Positions 601-11,627 of a DNA stretch of 50,583 bases are shown here, one piece after another. Position 1 is the stretch's first letter; each line of letters begins with the position of its first letter. The notes beneath the pieces are model-generated. The model saw nothing but the letters and a program-made list of their open reading frames with translations. It searched no databases and was not told where the DNA came from. Source of the stretch: Dehalococcoidia bacterium (GTDB lineage: Bacteria; Chloroflexota; Dehalococcoidia; UBA2979); the NCBI GenBank assembly GCA_019694855.1, contig JAIBBD010000010.1, forward strand, positions 1 to 50,583, given 5' to 3'. The translations under genes and the position numbers were made by a program.

Positions 601-1008
601 CTACCGCTTCCGCTGCAGTTCCATCAACACGAAATTCGAGGCCGTCGGATGCACCCAGATCGCGTCCGTATTCGGCACCCGCGTCACCCGGCCTCCACCG
701 GCCTCGATTTGCTGTGCCATCGCCTCCGGGTCATCCACCTCGCACACCAGCTGGTAGATCCCCTCGCCGTGCGGGTTCAGCGGATTCACGCGCTCCTTCA
801 TCAGCCGCGACACCGGGCTGTTCTCGTCCACTGGCGAAATCAGGTTCAGCACCACCTGGTCCCCGTACCCCATCGCCACCATCCGAAAATTCCCGATCGG
901 GTTGTGCGAGGGCTCACCCATCGCCTGCATCCCGAACCGCGACTCGTGGTTCCGCACCGCCTCCTCGAGGTCGTGCACGGCAATCGTGTGGTACTTCACC
1001 TGCAGCAT
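601..1008 (-). CDS. VOC (glyoxalase/methylmalonyl-CoA epimerase-like) protein
   Basis: A 135-residue protein with the two beta-alpha-beta-beta-beta halves of a vicinal oxygen chelate protein: YHTIAVHDLEEAV opens the first half, GIYQLVCEVDDPEAM the second, and FVLMELQ closes it. His7 and Glu130 sit where VOC metal ligands occur. The second-half His typical of methylmalonyl-CoA epimerase appears replaced (IYQL), so the metal site may be altered. The start at 1008 is chosen over 1095 because GGAGG lies 8 nt upstream of it and the extra N-terminus is not VOC-like. It points away from the acyl-CoA dehydrogenase; a role in acyl-CoA or small-molecule chemistry is only inferred. Confidence 0.7.
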   Translation of the reverse strand: MLQVKYHTIAVHDLEEAVRNHESRFGMQAMGEPSHNPIGNFRMVAMGYGDQVVLNLISPVDENSPVSRLMKERVNPLNPHGEGIYQLVCEVDDPEAMAQQIEAGGGRVTRVPNTDAIWVHPTASNFVLMELQRKR

Positions 1009-1124
1009 CTCGACGTCCTCCTCCGACTCGCACCCGCGCGGCGCGAACGGCCCGCAGTCTAGCGCATCACAACCGGCATCGAGCGCCACCTGCATTCCCC
1101 GCCTACTCGAGGAGACAGAACAAA

Positions 1125-1140
1125 TGTTTCACGTGAAACA
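1125..1140. other. parS centromere-like site
   Basis: The perfect 16-bp palindrome TGTTTCACGTGAAACA matches the bacterial parS consensus bound by ParB/Spo0J in ParABS chromosome segregation. It lies in the 259-bp divergent space between the VOC gene and the acyl-CoA dehydrogenase, outside any likely coding frame. No second copy was noticed elsewhere in the window and parA/parB are not in view. The sequence match is direct; that ParB binds here is inferred. Confidence 0.85.
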
Positions 1141-1267: not shown

Positions 1268-2479
1268 ATGGAATGGAATGACAGCGAGCAACAGGCCGCC
1301 TTCCGCGAAGACGTGCGCTCCTTCCTGCGCACCCGCCTCCCCGCCTACTACCAGGATCACGAGTCCCGCCGCCACGAGAACAGCGGCCTCGAGAACGACT
1401 GGCAGCAGGACCTCCACAACGGCACGCCCGAACAGCAGGCCGCCGCGAAGGAGTGGGCCGTCGCCCTGTCCGAGAAGGGCTGGGGCCAGCCGCACTGGCC
1501 CGCCGAATACGGCGGAGCCAGCCTCTCCCCCTTCGACCAGTTCATCCTCAAGCAGGAGTTCGCCCTCGCCGAGGCCCCCGAGATCGGCGGCTCCCTCGTC
1601 GGCTCCACCTTGCTCGTTCACGGCACCGAGGAGCAGAAGGAGCGCTTCCTCAAGCCCACGCTGACCGGCGAGATCCGCTGGGCCCAGGGCTTCTCCGAGC
1701 CCGGTGCCGGCTCCGACCTCGGCTCCCTCCAGTGCCGCGCCACCCGTGACGGCGACGAGTGGGTCATCAACGGCCAGAAGCTCTGGACCTCCGCCGGCCA
1801 CAAGGCCAACTGGATCTTCGGCCTCTTCCGCACCGACCCCGACGCCCCCAAGCATCGAGGCATCACCTTCCTCCTCCTCGACGCCACGAGCCCCGGCGTC
1901 TCCGTCCGCCCCATCATCTCGATGGGCTGGGAGCACGCCACGAACGAGACCTTCTACGAGGACGTACGAGTCCCCTCAAATCAGGTCGTAGGGGAGGTCA
2001 ACCGCGGCTGGTACGTCGGCATGACCCTCCTTGACTACGAACGCTCCGGCATCGGCGGCGCCGTCGCCCACCGCCGCAACCTCCAGGAGCTCATCGCCGA
2101 CGTCCGAGGTGGGAGCGGCACCCCGAATCGCGCCCGCCTCGAGCGCTTCGAGATCACGGACCGCTACATCGAGTCCGAGGTCATGTTCAACCTCGCTCTC
2201 CGGGTTGCTTCCATGCACGCCGCCGGCACCCTGCCGAACTACGAGGCCTCCATGGGCAAGCTCTACTCCACCGAGCTCGCCCAGCGCGTCGCCCGCACCG
2301 GCATGCGCACGTACGGCCTCTACGCCAACTGCTGGTCACCCACCGAGGAGTACGCGCCGCTCCACGCCAAGCACACCCAGAACTGCTGCCACACCGTCGT
2401 CGGCACCATCGCCGGCGGCTCCAACGAGATTCAGCGCAACATCATCGCCACCCGCGGTCTCGGCCTGCCCCGAGGCTAG
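1268..2479 (+). CDS. Acyl-CoA dehydrogenase
   Basis: A 403-residue flavoprotein of normal family length that would oxidise an acyl-CoA to the 2-enoyl-CoA and pass electrons to ETF. Visible signatures are GFSEPGAGSDLGSL (about 141-153), INGQKLWTSAGHKANW (167-182) and the C-terminal GGSNEIQRNIIATRG. The usual MCAD-type Glu just before the GG is Ala here (TIAGGSNE). Glu258 in LDYER aligns with the catalytic base of isovaleryl-CoA/long-chain dehydrogenases, which suggests that subclass. GGGAGGT lies just upstream of the ATG. A strong hairpin ends the gene. The substrate is unknown. Confidence 0.93.
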   Translation: MEWNDSEQQAAFREDVRSFLRTRLPAYYQDHESRRHENSGLENDWQQDLHNGTPEQQAAAKEWAVALSEKGWGQPHWPAEYGGASLSPFDQFILKQEFALAEAPEIGGSLVGSTLLVHGTEEQKERFLKPTLTGEIRWAQGFSEPGAGSDLGSLQCRATRDGDEWVINGQKLWTSAGHKANWIFGLFRTDPDAPKHRGITFLLLDATSPGVSVRPIISMGWEHATNETFYEDVRVPSNQVVGEVNRGWYVGMTLLDYERSGIGGAVAHRRNLQELIADVRGGSGTPNRARLERFEITDRYIESEVMFNLALRVASMHAAGTLPNYEASMGKLYSTELAQRVARTGMRTYGLYANCWSPTEEYAPLHAKHTQNCCHTVVGTIAGGSNEIQRNIIATRGLGLPRG

Positions 2480-2500
2480 TCAGCACCCCTCGAGGGACAA

Positions 2501-2535
2501 GACGAGAGGCGGGCCATTCGGGCCCGCCTCTCGTC
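2501..2535. terminator. Bidirectional hairpin terminator
   Basis: A perfect 15-bp stem (2501-2515 with 2521-2535) around the 5-nt loop ATTCG lies between the converging acyl-CoA dehydrogenase and binding-protein genes. There is no U-tract, so termination is inferred from position and stem strength. Confidence 0.75.
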
Positions 2536-2557
2536 TGACTGCCGGAAGGTCCGCTGG

Positions 2558-4336
2558 CTACTTGTCGAGCCAGAGGTTCTTCGCCTGCGCCCCGATGTCG
2601 TAGAAGTACGAGTTGGCGCCCAGCACGCCCGAGTAGCGGACGCCGCGCATCCAGGGCTGGTACGTCACCGTCCCGATGTTCGCCGGCTTCTCCACGCGGT
2701 ACATCTGGTCCAGTGCCTTGTCCCAGATCTTCCGCAGGATCTCCTTGCGGGCCTGCGGGTTGATCTCCGACCGCTGCTGCTCCGCCCATGCGTCGATCTC
2801 CGCGTCCTTGATCCGCCAGCGGTTGCCCGTCGAGTCGGACCGCATGTGCTGGTAGAAGAAGTTGTCCGTGTCGAAGCCCTGCGCCGCCCAGCCGTCAGCG
2901 ACCTCGGCGAACTTCGCACCGATCCACTGCGAGTTGAACTCCGTGTAGTCGGTCTTCTTCGCCTCGAAGTTGATGCCGGCCCGCCGCATCTGGTCGACCA
3001 GCACCTCGTTCGGGCGCGTGTTCGTCGCGTCGTTGTAGTTGTAGTAGATCATCGGCACGCTCAGGTTCGGCTGACCGGCCGCGTCGAGGAGCTTCTTCGC
3101 CTCTGCCACGTCCGTCTTGAACCACTTGCCGAGCAGCCCCGACTCCACCGTCGGCTGCTGGTCGAACAGGAAGATCCAGGGGAACGTCGGCAACGCGACG
3201 CCGTTGCCCTGGAACACAAGCTGGATCAGCTCGTTGCGGTCCATCGCGAGGCTGATCGCGCGCCGAATGCGCACGTCCTGCCACTTCGGGTTGTCGAGGT
3301 TGAACGAGATCGCGAACGTGGTGTTCACCGGCCGCGACGCCGTCGCCTGCACGTCCGGATTCGTCTTCAACAACGTCTCGAGGTCAGCCGGAGTCGCACC
3401 GACCACATAGCCGAAGTCGATCTGCTTCGCGCGGAACGCCGCGAGCTGCGCGGCGCCGTCCGTCATCACCCGGCAGTCGATCCCGTCGACGTAGACCTGA
3501 CCAGCCCAGTACTCGGGGTTCTTGACGAAAGTCGCCCCGGTGCCCGACTGCGCGTCTTTCAAGATCATCGGCCCCGTGCCGATGACCTTCTTCTCGATAT
3601 CGCCGGAGTCGACGAGCTCCTTCGGGTGGATGGTCGTGTAGCGGCTGGCGATCGGGATCAGGAAGTCCGGCTGAGGCTTGTTCAGCGTGATCTTCAGCGT
3701 CGCGTCATCGACGACGTCGATCGACTTCACGTTCGTGTAGTACGGCTTGTGCACGCCCTCGGTCTTGTAGCGGTCGAGGGCGAACTTCGCGTCAGCCGCC
3801 TTGAACGCCCGCCCGTTCAGCGGGGCCACGTTCTGCCATTTCACGTTCGGCTGCAGCTTGAACGTGTACGTCAGGCCGTCCGGTGACGTTTCCCACGACT
3901 TCGCCAGCTCCGGCACCAGGTCGAGCTTGAATGGATCGGCGTCCGGACCGCGCTTGAAGCCCAGCAGGCGGTCGTACACGGTGTTCGGCACCGTAATCGT
4001 GCCGCCGGCGGCCGACTTCGTCGGGTCCATCGTCGACACGTCCCAGGTGACGCCGAAGACCGCCGTGCCGCCCGCCTTCGGCGTCTTCCCCGCCGGCTCC
4101 GCGAACGCGTACGGGATCGTCTTGCCGCCGACCTGGATGCCCGCGACCGGCGTCGCGCCCGCGGTCGCCGAGGCGCCTCCGCCGCTCGTCCCGCCGGACG
4201 GCTGGTCGCCGCCGTCATCGTCGCTCCCGCATCCGATGAGCGCCGCCGCGGCCACGCCTCCGGCCGCCAGCGCTCCGCCACGCAGCACGCTGCGGCGGGT
4301 AAGCAGCGATTCCTTGTCCCCCAGCAGACTGCTCAT
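2558..4336 (-). CDS. ABC transporter substrate-binding lipoprotein (SBP family 5, oligopeptide/nickel type)
   Basis: A 592-residue extracytoplasmic binding protein. The N-terminus has a Tat-like TRRSVLRGG (Arg14-Arg15), a hydrophobic stretch and a lipobox ending at Cys36 (ALIGC), then an acidic Gly/Ser linker. The mature part shows family 5 features such as VPELAKSWETSPDGLTYTF, IRRAISLAMDRNEL and a C-terminal RVEKPANIGTV. The start at 4336 is preferred to 4438 because GGGAG lies 9 nt upstream and it places the Tat motif near the N-terminus. No permease or ATPase gene is adjacent, so the transporter partner must be elsewhere. The ligand could be a peptide or another solute. Confidence 0.92.
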   Translation of the reverse strand: MSSLLGDKESLLTRRSVLRGGALAAGGVAAAALIGCGSDDDGGDQPSGGTSGGGASATAGATPVAGIQVGGKTIPYAFAEPAGKTPKAGGTAVFGVTWDVSTMDPTKSAAGGTITVPNTVYDRLLGFKRGPDADPFKLDLVPELAKSWETSPDGLTYTFKLQPNVKWQNVAPLNGRAFKAADAKFALDRYKTEGVHKPYYTNVKSIDVVDDATLKITLNKPQPDFLIPIASRYTTIHPKELVDSGDIEKKVIGTGPMILKDAQSGTGATFVKNPEYWAGQVYVDGIDCRVMTDGAAQLAAFRAKQIDFGYVVGATPADLETLLKTNPDVQATASRPVNTTFAISFNLDNPKWQDVRIRRAISLAMDRNELIQLVFQGNGVALPTFPWIFLFDQQPTVESGLLGKWFKTDVAEAKKLLDAAGQPNLSVPMIYYNYNDATNTRPNEVLVDQMRRAGINFEAKKTDYTEFNSQWIGAKFAEVADGWAAQGFDTDNFFYQHMRSDSTGNRWRIKDAEIDAWAEQQRSEINPQARKEILRKIWDKALDQMYRVEKPANIGTVTYQPWMRGVRYSGVLGANSYFYDIGAQAKNLWLDK

Positions 4337-5417: not shown

Positions 5418-6626
5418 ATGTCCGGTCCGCTCGAAGGCTGGCGCGTCCTCGACCTGACTCAGGGGATCGCTGGTCCGTACGTCACCAAGCTCTGCTCCGA
5501 CTACGGCGCTAACGTCCTCAAGGTCGAGCGACCGGGAGTGGGCGACGCGTCGAGGAATATCGGCCCCTTCCCGGGCGACCACCCGAACGTGGACGCGAGC
5601 GGGATGTTCCTCACCCTCAATACGGGAAAGCACAGCGTCACCCTCAACCTGAAGACGAAGACGGGTCGCGAGATCCTCCTACGGCTGGCGAAGGAGGCGG
5701 ATCTCGTCGTCGAGAGCTTCCGCGCCGGGACGCTGGAGCGGCTCGACCTCGCCCCGGAGCGTTTTGCCGAGGCCAACCCGTCGGCCGCGCTCGTCCGCAT
5801 CTCGAACTTCGGCCAGACCGGCCCCATGCGCGACTTCAGCGCTGACGACCTGACCGCCTACGCCGCAGCCGGCATCCTGCAGGTCACCGGCGAGCCCGAC
5901 CGCGAACCGGTAGGCCTCGGTATCTATACGCCGCTCTTCCTCGCGGGGGCGATCGTGGCGCCGATGGCCCTCGCGGCCATGCGAGCCGCCCACCGCGACG
6001 GACAGCAGGAGGTCGTGGATTTCTCGATCCAGGAGGGGCTCGCCGGATCCATGGACCGAGGCGGCACGAACCTCGTCAGCTTCCAGTACAGCGGGGCGCT
6101 CATGGTCGAGCGCCGTGAGCGCGTCCTCATCAACTCCCTGCCGAATGGAGTCTTCCCCTGCGCCGACGGGTACATCCAGGTCACCACGCAGGTGAACTGG
6201 TTCGACCGCTTCTGCCGCGTCATCGGTCGTCCGGAGTGGATCACCGATCCGCGCATGACCTCCAACCTCAACAACCCGCTCGAAATCGGCGGTGAGGTGG
6301 AGGCGGCGTTTTACGAGTGGCTGTTGCCGAGGACGAAGCAGCAAGCCATGGAAGAGGCCCAGGCGGTCGGCTGGCCCCTTTCGGCGCTGAATACGCCCGC
6401 CGATGTCATCCGCGACCCGCACTTCCGCGAGCGCGGCTTCTTCGTTGGCATCGACCATCCACAGGCCGGCCACATCGAGCTGCCCGGGCTCGCCGTCCGC
6501 TTCAGCGACACCCCCGGCGAGGTGCGCCGCCCGCCCTTGCTCGGCGAACACACCTTCGAAGTGCTGGCCGGCCTCGGGTACGCGCCGCAGGAGATCGCGG
6601 CGCTACGCGCCGAGAGCGTCATCTGA
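5418..6626 (+). CDS. Family III CoA-transferase (CaiB/BaiF), catalytic Asp position substituted
   Basis: A 402-residue CaiB/BaiF protein: N-terminal GWRVLDLTQGIAGPYVTKL, then GANVLKVERPGVGD (30-43), LNTGKHSVTLNLKT (67-80) and VRISNFGQTGP (126-136). Family III enzymes move CoA between acids through an aspartyl-CoA mixed anhydride. The loop that normally reads GD before the next helix reads VGLGIYTP (165-172) here, so the nucleophile appears to be missing. The adjacent paralogue keeps it. A heteromeric enzyme in which this is the non-catalytic subunit, as proposed for benzylsuccinate-type transferases, is an inference. It ends 10 nt before its partner. Confidence 0.88.
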   Translation: MSGPLEGWRVLDLTQGIAGPYVTKLCSDYGANVLKVERPGVGDASRNIGPFPGDHPNVDASGMFLTLNTGKHSVTLNLKTKTGREILLRLAKEADLVVESFRAGTLERLDLAPERFAEANPSAALVRISNFGQTGPMRDFSADDLTAYAAAGILQVTGEPDREPVGLGIYTPLFLAGAIVAPMALAAMRAAHRDGQQEVVDFSIQEGLAGSMDRGGTNLVSFQYSGALMVERRERVLINSLPNGVFPCADGYIQVTTQVNWFDRFCRVIGRPEWITDPRMTSNLNNPLEIGGEVEAAFYEWLLPRTKQQAMEEAQAVGWPLSALNTPADVIRDPHFRERGFFVGIDHPQAGHIELPGLAVRFSDTPGEVRRPPLLGEHTFEVLAGLGYAPQEIAALRAESVI

Positions 6627-6636
6627 GGAGGAGTCG

Positions 6637-7941
6637 ATGAGCGACCGCAGGCCTCCACTGGACGGCGTCCGTGTCCTCGCACAGGGCCTCGTCTGGGCCG
6701 GGCCCTTCTCGACCGTGATCCTGTCCGACCTCGGCGCAGAGGTGATCGAGGTGGAGTCGATCCAGCACCTCAACCCCACCCGCACACAGATGCGTCACAT
6801 CCCTGACGTCGTCATGGAAAGCGTCGGTGGCACCTACTACGTGAACCGCGACCCCTCCGAGGGCTTCTGGAACCGCCAGGCGTGGTTCAACTACGGCAAG
6901 CGCGGCTGCAAGTCGGTTACGTTGAACCTCCACAGCGCCCGTGGCCGTGAGCTCTTCCTCGAACTGGTGAAGCAGTCGGACGCGTTCATCGAGAATAATG
7001 CCGCGGGCGTGGTCGACTCCCTCGGCATCGGCTGGGACGTACTCCACGCCACGAACCCGCGCCTGATCATGGTGCGCTTCCCCGGTTTCGGCATCACGGG
7101 CCCCTACAGCCACCACAAGGGCTACGGCTCGAACATGGAGGCTGTCGCCGGCCACACGATGGTGCGCGGCTACGCCGACGCCGACCCCTCGCTCACGCCC
7201 GCTTCCCTGCACGGCGACCCGAACGCGGGCGCACACGTCGCATGGGCGGTGCAGGCGGCGCTCCTGGCCCGTGAGCGCACAGGCGAGGGCCAATTGATCG
7301 AGATCTCGCAGTCCGAGGCCGTGCTTCACCACATCGCCTACGACATCCTCGACTACACCCTCAACGGCCGCGAGACGGGGCAGCGAGGGAACAACCACCC
7401 GGCCTTCGCGCCATACGGGGTGTTCCCCTGCGCGGGCCACGACCGCTGGATCGCGATCGCAGTGACCTCGGATGAAGGGTTTGCTGCGCTGTCCGAGGTC
7501 ATCGGGGCTCCCGAACTCGCCTCGGATGAGCGGTTCGCCACGACCATCGACCGCCTCCGCCACCGCTCCGAGGTAAACGCGGCCGTCGGCGAGCGGACAG
7601 GCGCGATGCAGAACGAGCAGCTCGCGAAGGCGCTGCAGGAGCGCGGCGTCACCGCATCGGCACTGGCGCACCAACAGGAAATGCATGAGGACGAGCACCT
7701 CCGTTCGCGCGGCTACTTCAACTCGATCACGCACCCCGAGGCCGGGACGCACCTGTACCCTGGCCCGCTCGCGAAGCTCGAGCGCACGGTGGCGGTGCCG
7801 CCGTTCCAGCCGGCGCCCACGCTCGGTCAACACAACGAGTATGTGCTGAAGGACCTGCTGGGCCTTGATGACGCGGCGTATCAACAGCTCATCGAGGAGC
7901 AGGTCATCGGGGACACGTACCTCGAAAGCGCGACTGCCTGA
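6637..7941 (+). CDS. Family III CoA-transferase (CaiB/BaiF), Asp retained
   Basis: A 434-residue CaiB/BaiF paralogue of the preceding gene. Features are VRVLAQGLVWAGPFSTVIL, LGAEVIEVESIQH (32-44), YGKRGCKSVTLNLHS (86-100), RFPGFGITGPY (147-157) and LHGDPNAGAH (191-200), where Asp194 is the expected nucleophile that becomes acylated. The start is the ATG at 6637, preceded by GAGGAGGAG that overlaps the end of the upstream gene, so the pair is probably translationally coupled. The longer frame starting within the upstream gene is rejected. The likely role is activation of a carboxylic acid to its CoA thioester for the neighbouring beta-oxidation-type enzymes; donor and acceptor are unknown. Confidence 0.9.
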   Translation: MSDRRPPLDGVRVLAQGLVWAGPFSTVILSDLGAEVIEVESIQHLNPTRTQMRHIPDVVMESVGGTYYVNRDPSEGFWNRQAWFNYGKRGCKSVTLNLHSARGRELFLELVKQSDAFIENNAAGVVDSLGIGWDVLHATNPRLIMVRFPGFGITGPYSHHKGYGSNMEAVAGHTMVRGYADADPSLTPASLHGDPNAGAHVAWAVQAALLARERTGEGQLIEISQSEAVLHHIAYDILDYTLNGRETGQRGNNHPAFAPYGVFPCAGHDRWIAIAVTSDEGFAALSEVIGAPELASDERFATTIDRLRHRSEVNAAVGERTGAMQNEQLAKALQERGVTASALAHQQEMHEDEHLRSRGYFNSITHPEAGTHLYPGPLAKLERTVAVPPFQPAPTLGQHNEYVLKDLLGLDDAAYQQLIEEQVIGDTYLESATA

Positions 7942-8001
7942 CGAGGCGCGGGCGCGCGGAGATTGGTTGGGCTCAAGCGTCCCACTGCGCCATCGGCGGC
8001 G

Positions 8002-10778: not shown

Positions 10779-11627
10779 CTATTCGCGCTCCATCAGCCGC
10801 GACCGCGCTGCGTTCACGACGCGGATGGCGCGCACAACCTCGCGGACGTCATGAACACGCACGACGTGGACCCCGGACCAGGCGGCGAGCACGTTGAACG
10901 CGATGGTTGCTTCGATCAGGCCCTCGACGTCCTGCCGATCACCCGCGCCCAGTAACTCGGCGAGGAACCCTTTCCGCGAGGCGGAAACGAGTACGGGTCG
11001 TCCCACCGAGGTCATGCGAGGAAGGGCGTTCAGCAACCGGAGGTTGTCCGCGGCGGACTTGCCAAAGCCGAACCCGGGGTCGAGCCAGACACCGGCGACG
11101 CCGGCGGACTCGAGGGCGTTCGCCTGGCGGGTCAGGAAGACCTCCACGTCGTGAGCGATGTTGTCGTAGGTCTGGTCGGCCTCCCGGTGGTGCTTCGGCG
11201 CGCCGCGCATGTGCATCGCCACGACGGGGAGCCGGCAGCGGACGGCCACGTCGACCATCGCTGGATTGGTGAAGCCGGTCACGTCGTTCAAGAGATGGAC
11301 GCCCGCGCGGGCCGCCTCGTTCGCGACGGCAGGCGTCCAGGTATCGACAGACACAGGAATACCGGCAGCGGCGATCGCCTCGATGGCCGGGCAGACGCGA
11401 TCTACCTCCTCCTGCGCGGTCAGGTCACGGCCGCCCGTCCGCGTGGAGTGCGCACCGACATCGATGATCTCGGCACCCGCCTCCCGGAGCTCGAGCGCGC
11501 GCTCGAGTGCCTGACCGGGCCGGACGATCGACTCGCTGATCGGCGAGTCGTAGGACACGTTGAGAATGCCCATGACCACCGTGCGGTTGGTGCAGTCGAT
11601 CGTATGGGGACCGAGCTGCAGCAGCAT
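10779..11627 (-). CDS. folP: Dihydropteroate synthase, with atypical substrate loops
   Basis: A 282-residue TIM-barrel of DHPS type, which joins pterin diphosphate and p-aminobenzoate in folate synthesis. Conserved blocks are VVMGILNVSYDS (18-28), IPVSVDTW, LLNDVTGF, VWLDPGFGFGKS, SASRKGFL and VVRVHDV. The two flexible loops deviate: loop 1 reads NVSYDSPISES instead of the usual NvTPDSFSDGG, and loop 2 reads GAHSTRTGG instead of ESTRPGA. The Asn, Asp, Lys and Arg of the pterin/phosphate sites remain. It starts 3 nt after the upstream DUF2520 gene stops, forming an operon. DHPS is the most likely role; a related pterin enzyme is possible. Confidence 0.82.
   Translation of the reverse strand: MLLQLGPHTIDCTNRTVVMGILNVSYDSPISESIVRPGQALERALELREAGAEIIDVGAHSTRTGGRDLTAQEEVDRVCPAIEAIAAAGIPVSVDTWTPAVANEAARAGVHLLNDVTGFTNPAMVDVAVRCRLPVVAMHMRGAPKHHREADQTYDNIAHDVEVFLTRQANALESAGVAGVWLDPGFGFGKSAADNLRLLNALPRMTSVGRPVLVSASRKGFLAELLGAGDRQDVEGLIEATIAFNVLAAWSGVHVVRVHDVREVVRAIRVVNAARSRLMERE

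Follow-up and report, generated by a model that had tools for sequence, protein, structure and literature searches.

Accessory parS sites of a Dehalococcoidia genome with a GNAC arm that forms a predicted LexA-type box

A perfect parS palindrome in the window (the whole stretch of 50,583 nucleotides from a Dehalococcoidia bacterium analysed here) carries on one side a short GNAC arm, and the arm and the adjoining parS half read together as a LexA-type box. The earlier note described the palindrome but overlooked the arm. By sequence, this composite of 23 bp (GAACAAATGTTTCACGTGAAACA, 1118-1140) is a recurrent element of accessory parS sites in the same family and is nearly absent from the par-linked ones. 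We put at about even the chances that such copies are accessory ParB-loading sites with one half doubling as a LexA-type box, which could let LexA gate the loading of ParB. No bacterial centromere is understood better than parS, yet the extra copies that many chromosomes carry away from the par genes still call for an explanation. An accessory class with a LexA-type arm, which the par-linked site lacks, offers a test of site-by-site control of ParB loading.

The window site and the parS copies of the host genome

The 16-mer at 1125-1140 matches the parS consensus with 0 mismatches, as the earlier note had reported, and is the only match within the window at up to three mismatches (mean of 0.02 in shuffled sequences). 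With independent bases at the G+C content of the window, about 1e-6 exact copies are expected per window and about 5e-5 per genome, in agreement with the view of the earlier note that a chance match was very unlikely. Its placement of the site between metabolic genes also holds, parS being flanked by divergent VOC and acyl-CoA dehydrogenase genes. The features of the window are as follows.

601..1095, minus strand: VOC/glyoxalase-fold protein (weak methylmalonyl-CoA epimerase match, below the cut-off)
1118..1124, plus strand: arm GAACAAA, with GNAC at -7 to -4 (arm comparison across sites)
1118..1129, no strand assigned: LexA-type box GAACAAATGTTT, GNAC-N4-GTTY, predicted from the arm plus the left parS half (13.3-13.5 bits, 26-operator lexA matrix)
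1125..1140, no strand assigned: perfect 16-bp parS palindrome TGTTTCACGTGAAACA (sequence match)
1268..2479, plus strand: acyl-CoA dehydrogenase (its start lies 128 bp beyond parS, on the downstream side)
10779..11627, minus strand: dihydropteroate-synthase-like gene, presumably folP, a name given from the sequence rather than by family search (left end of a block conserved in relatives; synteny anchor)

The listed start of the VOC gene is 30 bp from parS, and its true start may be further inside. A plasmid look-up with the window locus returned only acyl-CoA dehydrogenase-type cross-hits, covering at most one third of the query.

The host genome (G000) comprises 2.46 Mb in 130 contigs and is 96.5% complete, the window being its contig C9. 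The genome-wide search with one mismatch allowed that had been proposed as a check yielded six perfect copies, one each on C9, C20, C23, C54, C75 and C79, and two one-mismatch copies on C111 and C118, both inside ORFs. The site, previously called isolated, is therefore isolated inside the window but not genome-wide. Many scattered copies, or the absence of a ParB gene, had been named in the earlier note as what would refute it. The copies are indeed scattered over eight contigs, but several parS sites per chromosome are usual for a ParABS system, so the scatter is no refutation. A ParB gene is present: the one ParB-domain gene of G000 lies on C75 with parA and yidC. Judged by its domains (ParB_N, HTH_ParB and ParB_C; TIGR00180 at 166.6 bits; Pfam, NCBIfam), the product is a canonical, full chromosomal ParB, and its nearest solved relatives include the Caulobacter-type ParB 6t1f and Spo0J 6sdk/1vz0. 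A scan of genome contigs with a ParB alignment gave distant ParBs only, at no more than 51% identity, from Chloroflexota and others.

The par-linked parS is at C75:9133, upstream of yidC and about 6.5 kb from parA and 7.3 kb from parB. Because the par copy is found there with parA, parB and yidC, the window site is, as far as sequence can tell, a real parS of the accessory kind, one of five perfect accessory sites in G000. A BamB-like lipoprotein gene just upstream of yidC begins within the C75 parS (L043 9133-9149), which encodes the first residues of the lipoprotein, MFHVKH, there and in most single-site relatives.

The arm of the accessory sites in the family and the class

Sites with at most one mismatch are present in 38 of the 44 genomes of the family, mostly as exactly one site per genome, and ParB is present in 43 of the 44. 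Where the context was read, single sites usually occupy the same place upstream of yidC. Higher numbers are found in G017 and G041 (nine each), G000 (eight), G002, G010, G047, G048 and G050 (four each), and G011 and G012 (two each). The counts below use all 78 sites, 38 accessory and 40 par-linked, in which the site of a single-site genome is taken as par-linked (most, not all, have the MFHVKH/yidC context) and from which five sites of other families (L083-L087) were excluded beforehand.

GNAC at -7 to -4 is present on at least one side of 29 of the 38 accessory sites versus 1 of the 40 par-linked ones (Fisher P 2e-12). Of 76 accessory arms, 31 have GNAC from -7 and at most four have it at any other offset; letter-shuffled arms gave 1.6 sites on average and never more than 7. 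The arm reads [A/C]G[A/C]AC[A/G]N[A], followed by TGTTTC, with the half-sites GAAC (21), GCAC (9) and GGAC (1). By genus, armed accessory sites number 4/7 in G000, 12/12 in g3, 3/9 in g11 and 10/10 in g12, and the nine accessory sites without an arm are those on C20, C111 and C118 of G000 plus six of the nine in g11. Between sister species the GNAC letters are constant while the degenerate letters vary (e.g. L051/L058, L054/L059 and L140/L145/L148), with the distal parS half also changing in several cases, a pattern of constancy amid change which suggests that the arm is under selection. In genus g12 (L070, L140, L141, L148 and L150), a conserved stretch, approximately AGATTCGAT, lies beyond the distal side of the composite parS.

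Across the class, the plain core TGTTYCACGTGAAACA occurs in 94 of 393 genomes, and the composite of arm and parS, with at most one mismatch, in 10 of the 393 and in 6 of 226 genera. G092, which belongs to another family, has eight composites among ten perfect sites, with arms that include GAAC, GCAC and GTAC, and G347 has one composite-like single site; by sequence match, no fewer than two families of the class thus have the composite. G124 (3.6 Mb), from the same family as G092 (f16), contains 30 perfect cores TGTTYCACGTGAAACA and no composite, indicating that dispersed parS sites need no arm. A literature search for parS in Chloroflexi found nothing, and no parS/LexA-box element was found among the matches listed, including the available part of PMC5521831, preprints and most subscription papers being outside the scope; this is weak evidence that the composite is new to the literature.

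A serious rival, to which we give a real though smaller likelihood, is that these are plain accessory parS sites of a multi-site ParABS system and that the unexplained arm is a by-product without a partner, for example one copied with duplicated sites. It accommodates the exact core, the presence of ParB, the several sites, and the armless copies, both the nine of the family and all 30 of G124. Copying of parS along with its flank seems to occur in G010, in which three sites (L061 9764; L062 9704 and 9904) share the right flank AATTGCTAAGGC. However, the sequence past the arm is unrelated between most sites, and the arm keeps the letters of lexA operators across genera and recurs in a second family.

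The match to lexA operators

LexA itself is encoded in G000 (TIGR00498). According to the available part of PMC3323433, the LexA motif of B. subtilis and M. tuberculosis is GAAC-N4-GTTC. Thirty-two loci were scanned for lexA and 28 had a recognisable lexA core; after two poor best hits were dropped, 26 operators formed the matrix, a small set that is not independent (several species per genus). The upstream boxes of these 26 of 28 lexA genes, read on the better strand, are GNAC-N4-GTTC in 25 and AAAC-N4-GTTC in one, and the half-sites over all 28 lexA genes are GAAC (27), GCAC (16), GTAC (9) and four others. In geometry and degeneracy the arm with its adjoining parS half, GNAC-N4-GTTY, agrees with the lexA operators of these genomes, and TGTTTC is common to parS and a LexA-type operator as one half of each.

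With the 26-operator matrix, 27 of 38 accessory and 0 of 40 par-linked sites reach at least 8 bits, a level attained by 55 of 352,672 background words. Since the core is near-identical in the two groups, the difference in score comes mainly from the arm. Thirteen of the 38 accessory sites score above the weakest operator (12.9 bits, leave-one-out), and the window box at 1118-1129 reaches 13.3-13.5 bits. Within 256 kb of G000, picked for its parS contigs, the six intergenic matches of at least 12 bits include four composites and one lexA operator. In G021 the matrix also picks GAACGTCTGTTC, a box upstream of recA, and this match supports taking it as a matrix for LexA.

By its geometry the window box looks like a LexA-type box and is a predicted LexA site. 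Its second half is GTTT, so the LexA half-sites (GNAC + GTNC) are not both perfect; the same holds at most accessory sites, GTTC being found at four sites of g12. The box is not at the promoter of an SOS gene, its neighbours being the VOC and acyl-CoA dehydrogenase genes. The stand-alone LexA pattern GAACANNTGTNC gave five forward and five reverse matches in G000 versus five and two for the backwards control, and these matches are unremarkable, the lexA operator apart.

The LexA geometry would also suit sites that are mainly LexA operators of the SOS regulon, with the parS likeness of the distal half secondary and ParB binding optional. The arm is retained at all ten accessory sites of g12 although eight of the ten cores are mismatched, and in g3 a gene that is dinB-like judging from its sequence (L055) has a site at its start. 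We nevertheless regard this reading as improbable. The palindrome retains 15 or all 16 of its letters, and the stand-alone lexA operators of the family genomes are without a parS half. In addition, few neighbours of the accessory sites resemble SOS genes. Of the 38 accessory sites, 13 are in divergent, 15 in tandem and 6 in convergent contexts, 3 fall inside ORFs and 1 lacks one side, as called by a simple script in which some long ORFs are probably spurious; 6 of the 34 sites between two called genes are convergent and have no promoter to repress, so promoter repression cannot be the general role.

Another alternative is that ParB itself contacts the arm, either as a third half-site or as an extension of its contact, which would make the composite a stronger parS. 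It abuts the half-site tail to tail, and the available part of PMC7022226 reports P. aeruginosa ParB on half-parS sequences (GTTTCAC/GTTCCAC). Read outwards, however, the arm gives TGTTCT or TGTGCT and not TGTTTCAC; at one position it has A or C, and in G092 T as well, which is how lexA operators vary; and 39 of the 40 sites taken as par-linked, to which ParB has to bind, are without it. We consider an additional ParB contact highly improbable.

Chromosomal position and proposed role

Sites of parS are expected in the ori domain, about 20% of the chromosome around oriC (PMC7022226, available part). Two genes of G000 encode a full-length DnaA, and each passes the NCBIfam DnaA cut-off.

L047 (G000:C84) 1893-3308: dnaA, next to a presumed dnaN-like gene
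L048 (G000:C120) 6601-7968: dnaA, matching the GC-skew turn in G021

A LexA-matrix match of 13.2 bits is found 25 bp upstream of the C84 dnaA. Contig C3 of the relative G021 has its turn of cumulative GC skew near 403-413 kb. The C120 dnaA has its orthologue there, at 412 kb, and parABS, at 518-523 kb, is some 110 kb away. On contig C3 of G050, the same dnaA is 103 kb from parS. In these two relatives (G021 L312-L338; G050 L147 and L339-L350), parABS is therefore about 100-110 kb from dnaA rather than adjoining it.

The earlier note had suggested mapping against GC skew and dnaA and had taken the window site as a possible mark of an origin-proximal region. The gene blocks near the accessory sites on C20, C79 and C111 could be placed in G021, on the opposite side of the skew turn from parABS and some 320, 250 and 190 kb from the turn, respectively. 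C54 maps to the G021 origin contig only in part, and for C23, C118 and the window only single, paralogue-rich genes map to it. The block of the window from folP to cta/ccm is collinear in several relatives and is absent from the 540 kb origin-bearing contig of G021, while the first 10 kb of the window, site included, have no collinear counterpart in the relatives examined. The identification of the site as parS, with a ParB in the genome, is supported by sequence; in a genome this fragmented, an origin-proximal position of the site is a possibility only. The idea that C9 and C111 join end to end does not hold: in relatives, C9 near 29.7 kb continues into C111 at 3.6 kb, indicating that the order in G000 is rearranged. 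Among hand-placed points, from which unmapped sites were left out, 11 of 13 mapped accessory points have a neighbour from another genus within 10 kb (P 0.005), and 7 of 11 after removal of the two weakest mappings (P 0.07), which is only suggestive of a conserved chromosomal position between genera.

At chromosomal parS, ParB loads as a CTP clamp and recruits condensin. The ParB from the single parB on C75 would be expected to bind the window parS and to act there in the same way. In the reading that we prefer, of accessory loading sites with a LexA-type half, ParB and LexA would need the same base pairs of the composite, so bound LexA should exclude ParB and keep it from loading. RecA-stimulated cleavage of LexA upon DNA damage might then open the accessory sites, and ParB and condensin could be redistributed along the chromosome. 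The full form of this scheme, damage-gated centromeres that LexA holds in healthy cells and that receive ParB and condensin only after SOS cleavage, is a tentative extension that we think doubtful. If true, it would couple chromosome folding and segregation to the SOS response, and the composite sites make it possible to test whether DNA damage and the organisation of the chromosome are linked.

Compared with the Gram-positive LexA box (PMC3323433, available part), the composite has the same half-site and N4 spacing, with the degeneracy of the own lexA operators of these genomes; unlike that box, its second half is common to parS and mostly GTTT, and it is often not at a promoter and not next to typical SOS genes. 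Like the chromosomal parS sites of B. subtilis, C. crescentus and P. aeruginosa, the sites described here comprise a 16-bp palindrome, a canonical ParB and several copies, one of them near parAB; they differ in the one-sided GNAC arm of the accessory copies, overlapping one parS half, and in a par-linked copy about 100-110 kb from dnaA in two relatives. The Noc binding site (NBS) is likewise a ParB-family palindrome scattered over the chromosome, whereas the core here is that of parS and G000 carries one ParB-domain gene.
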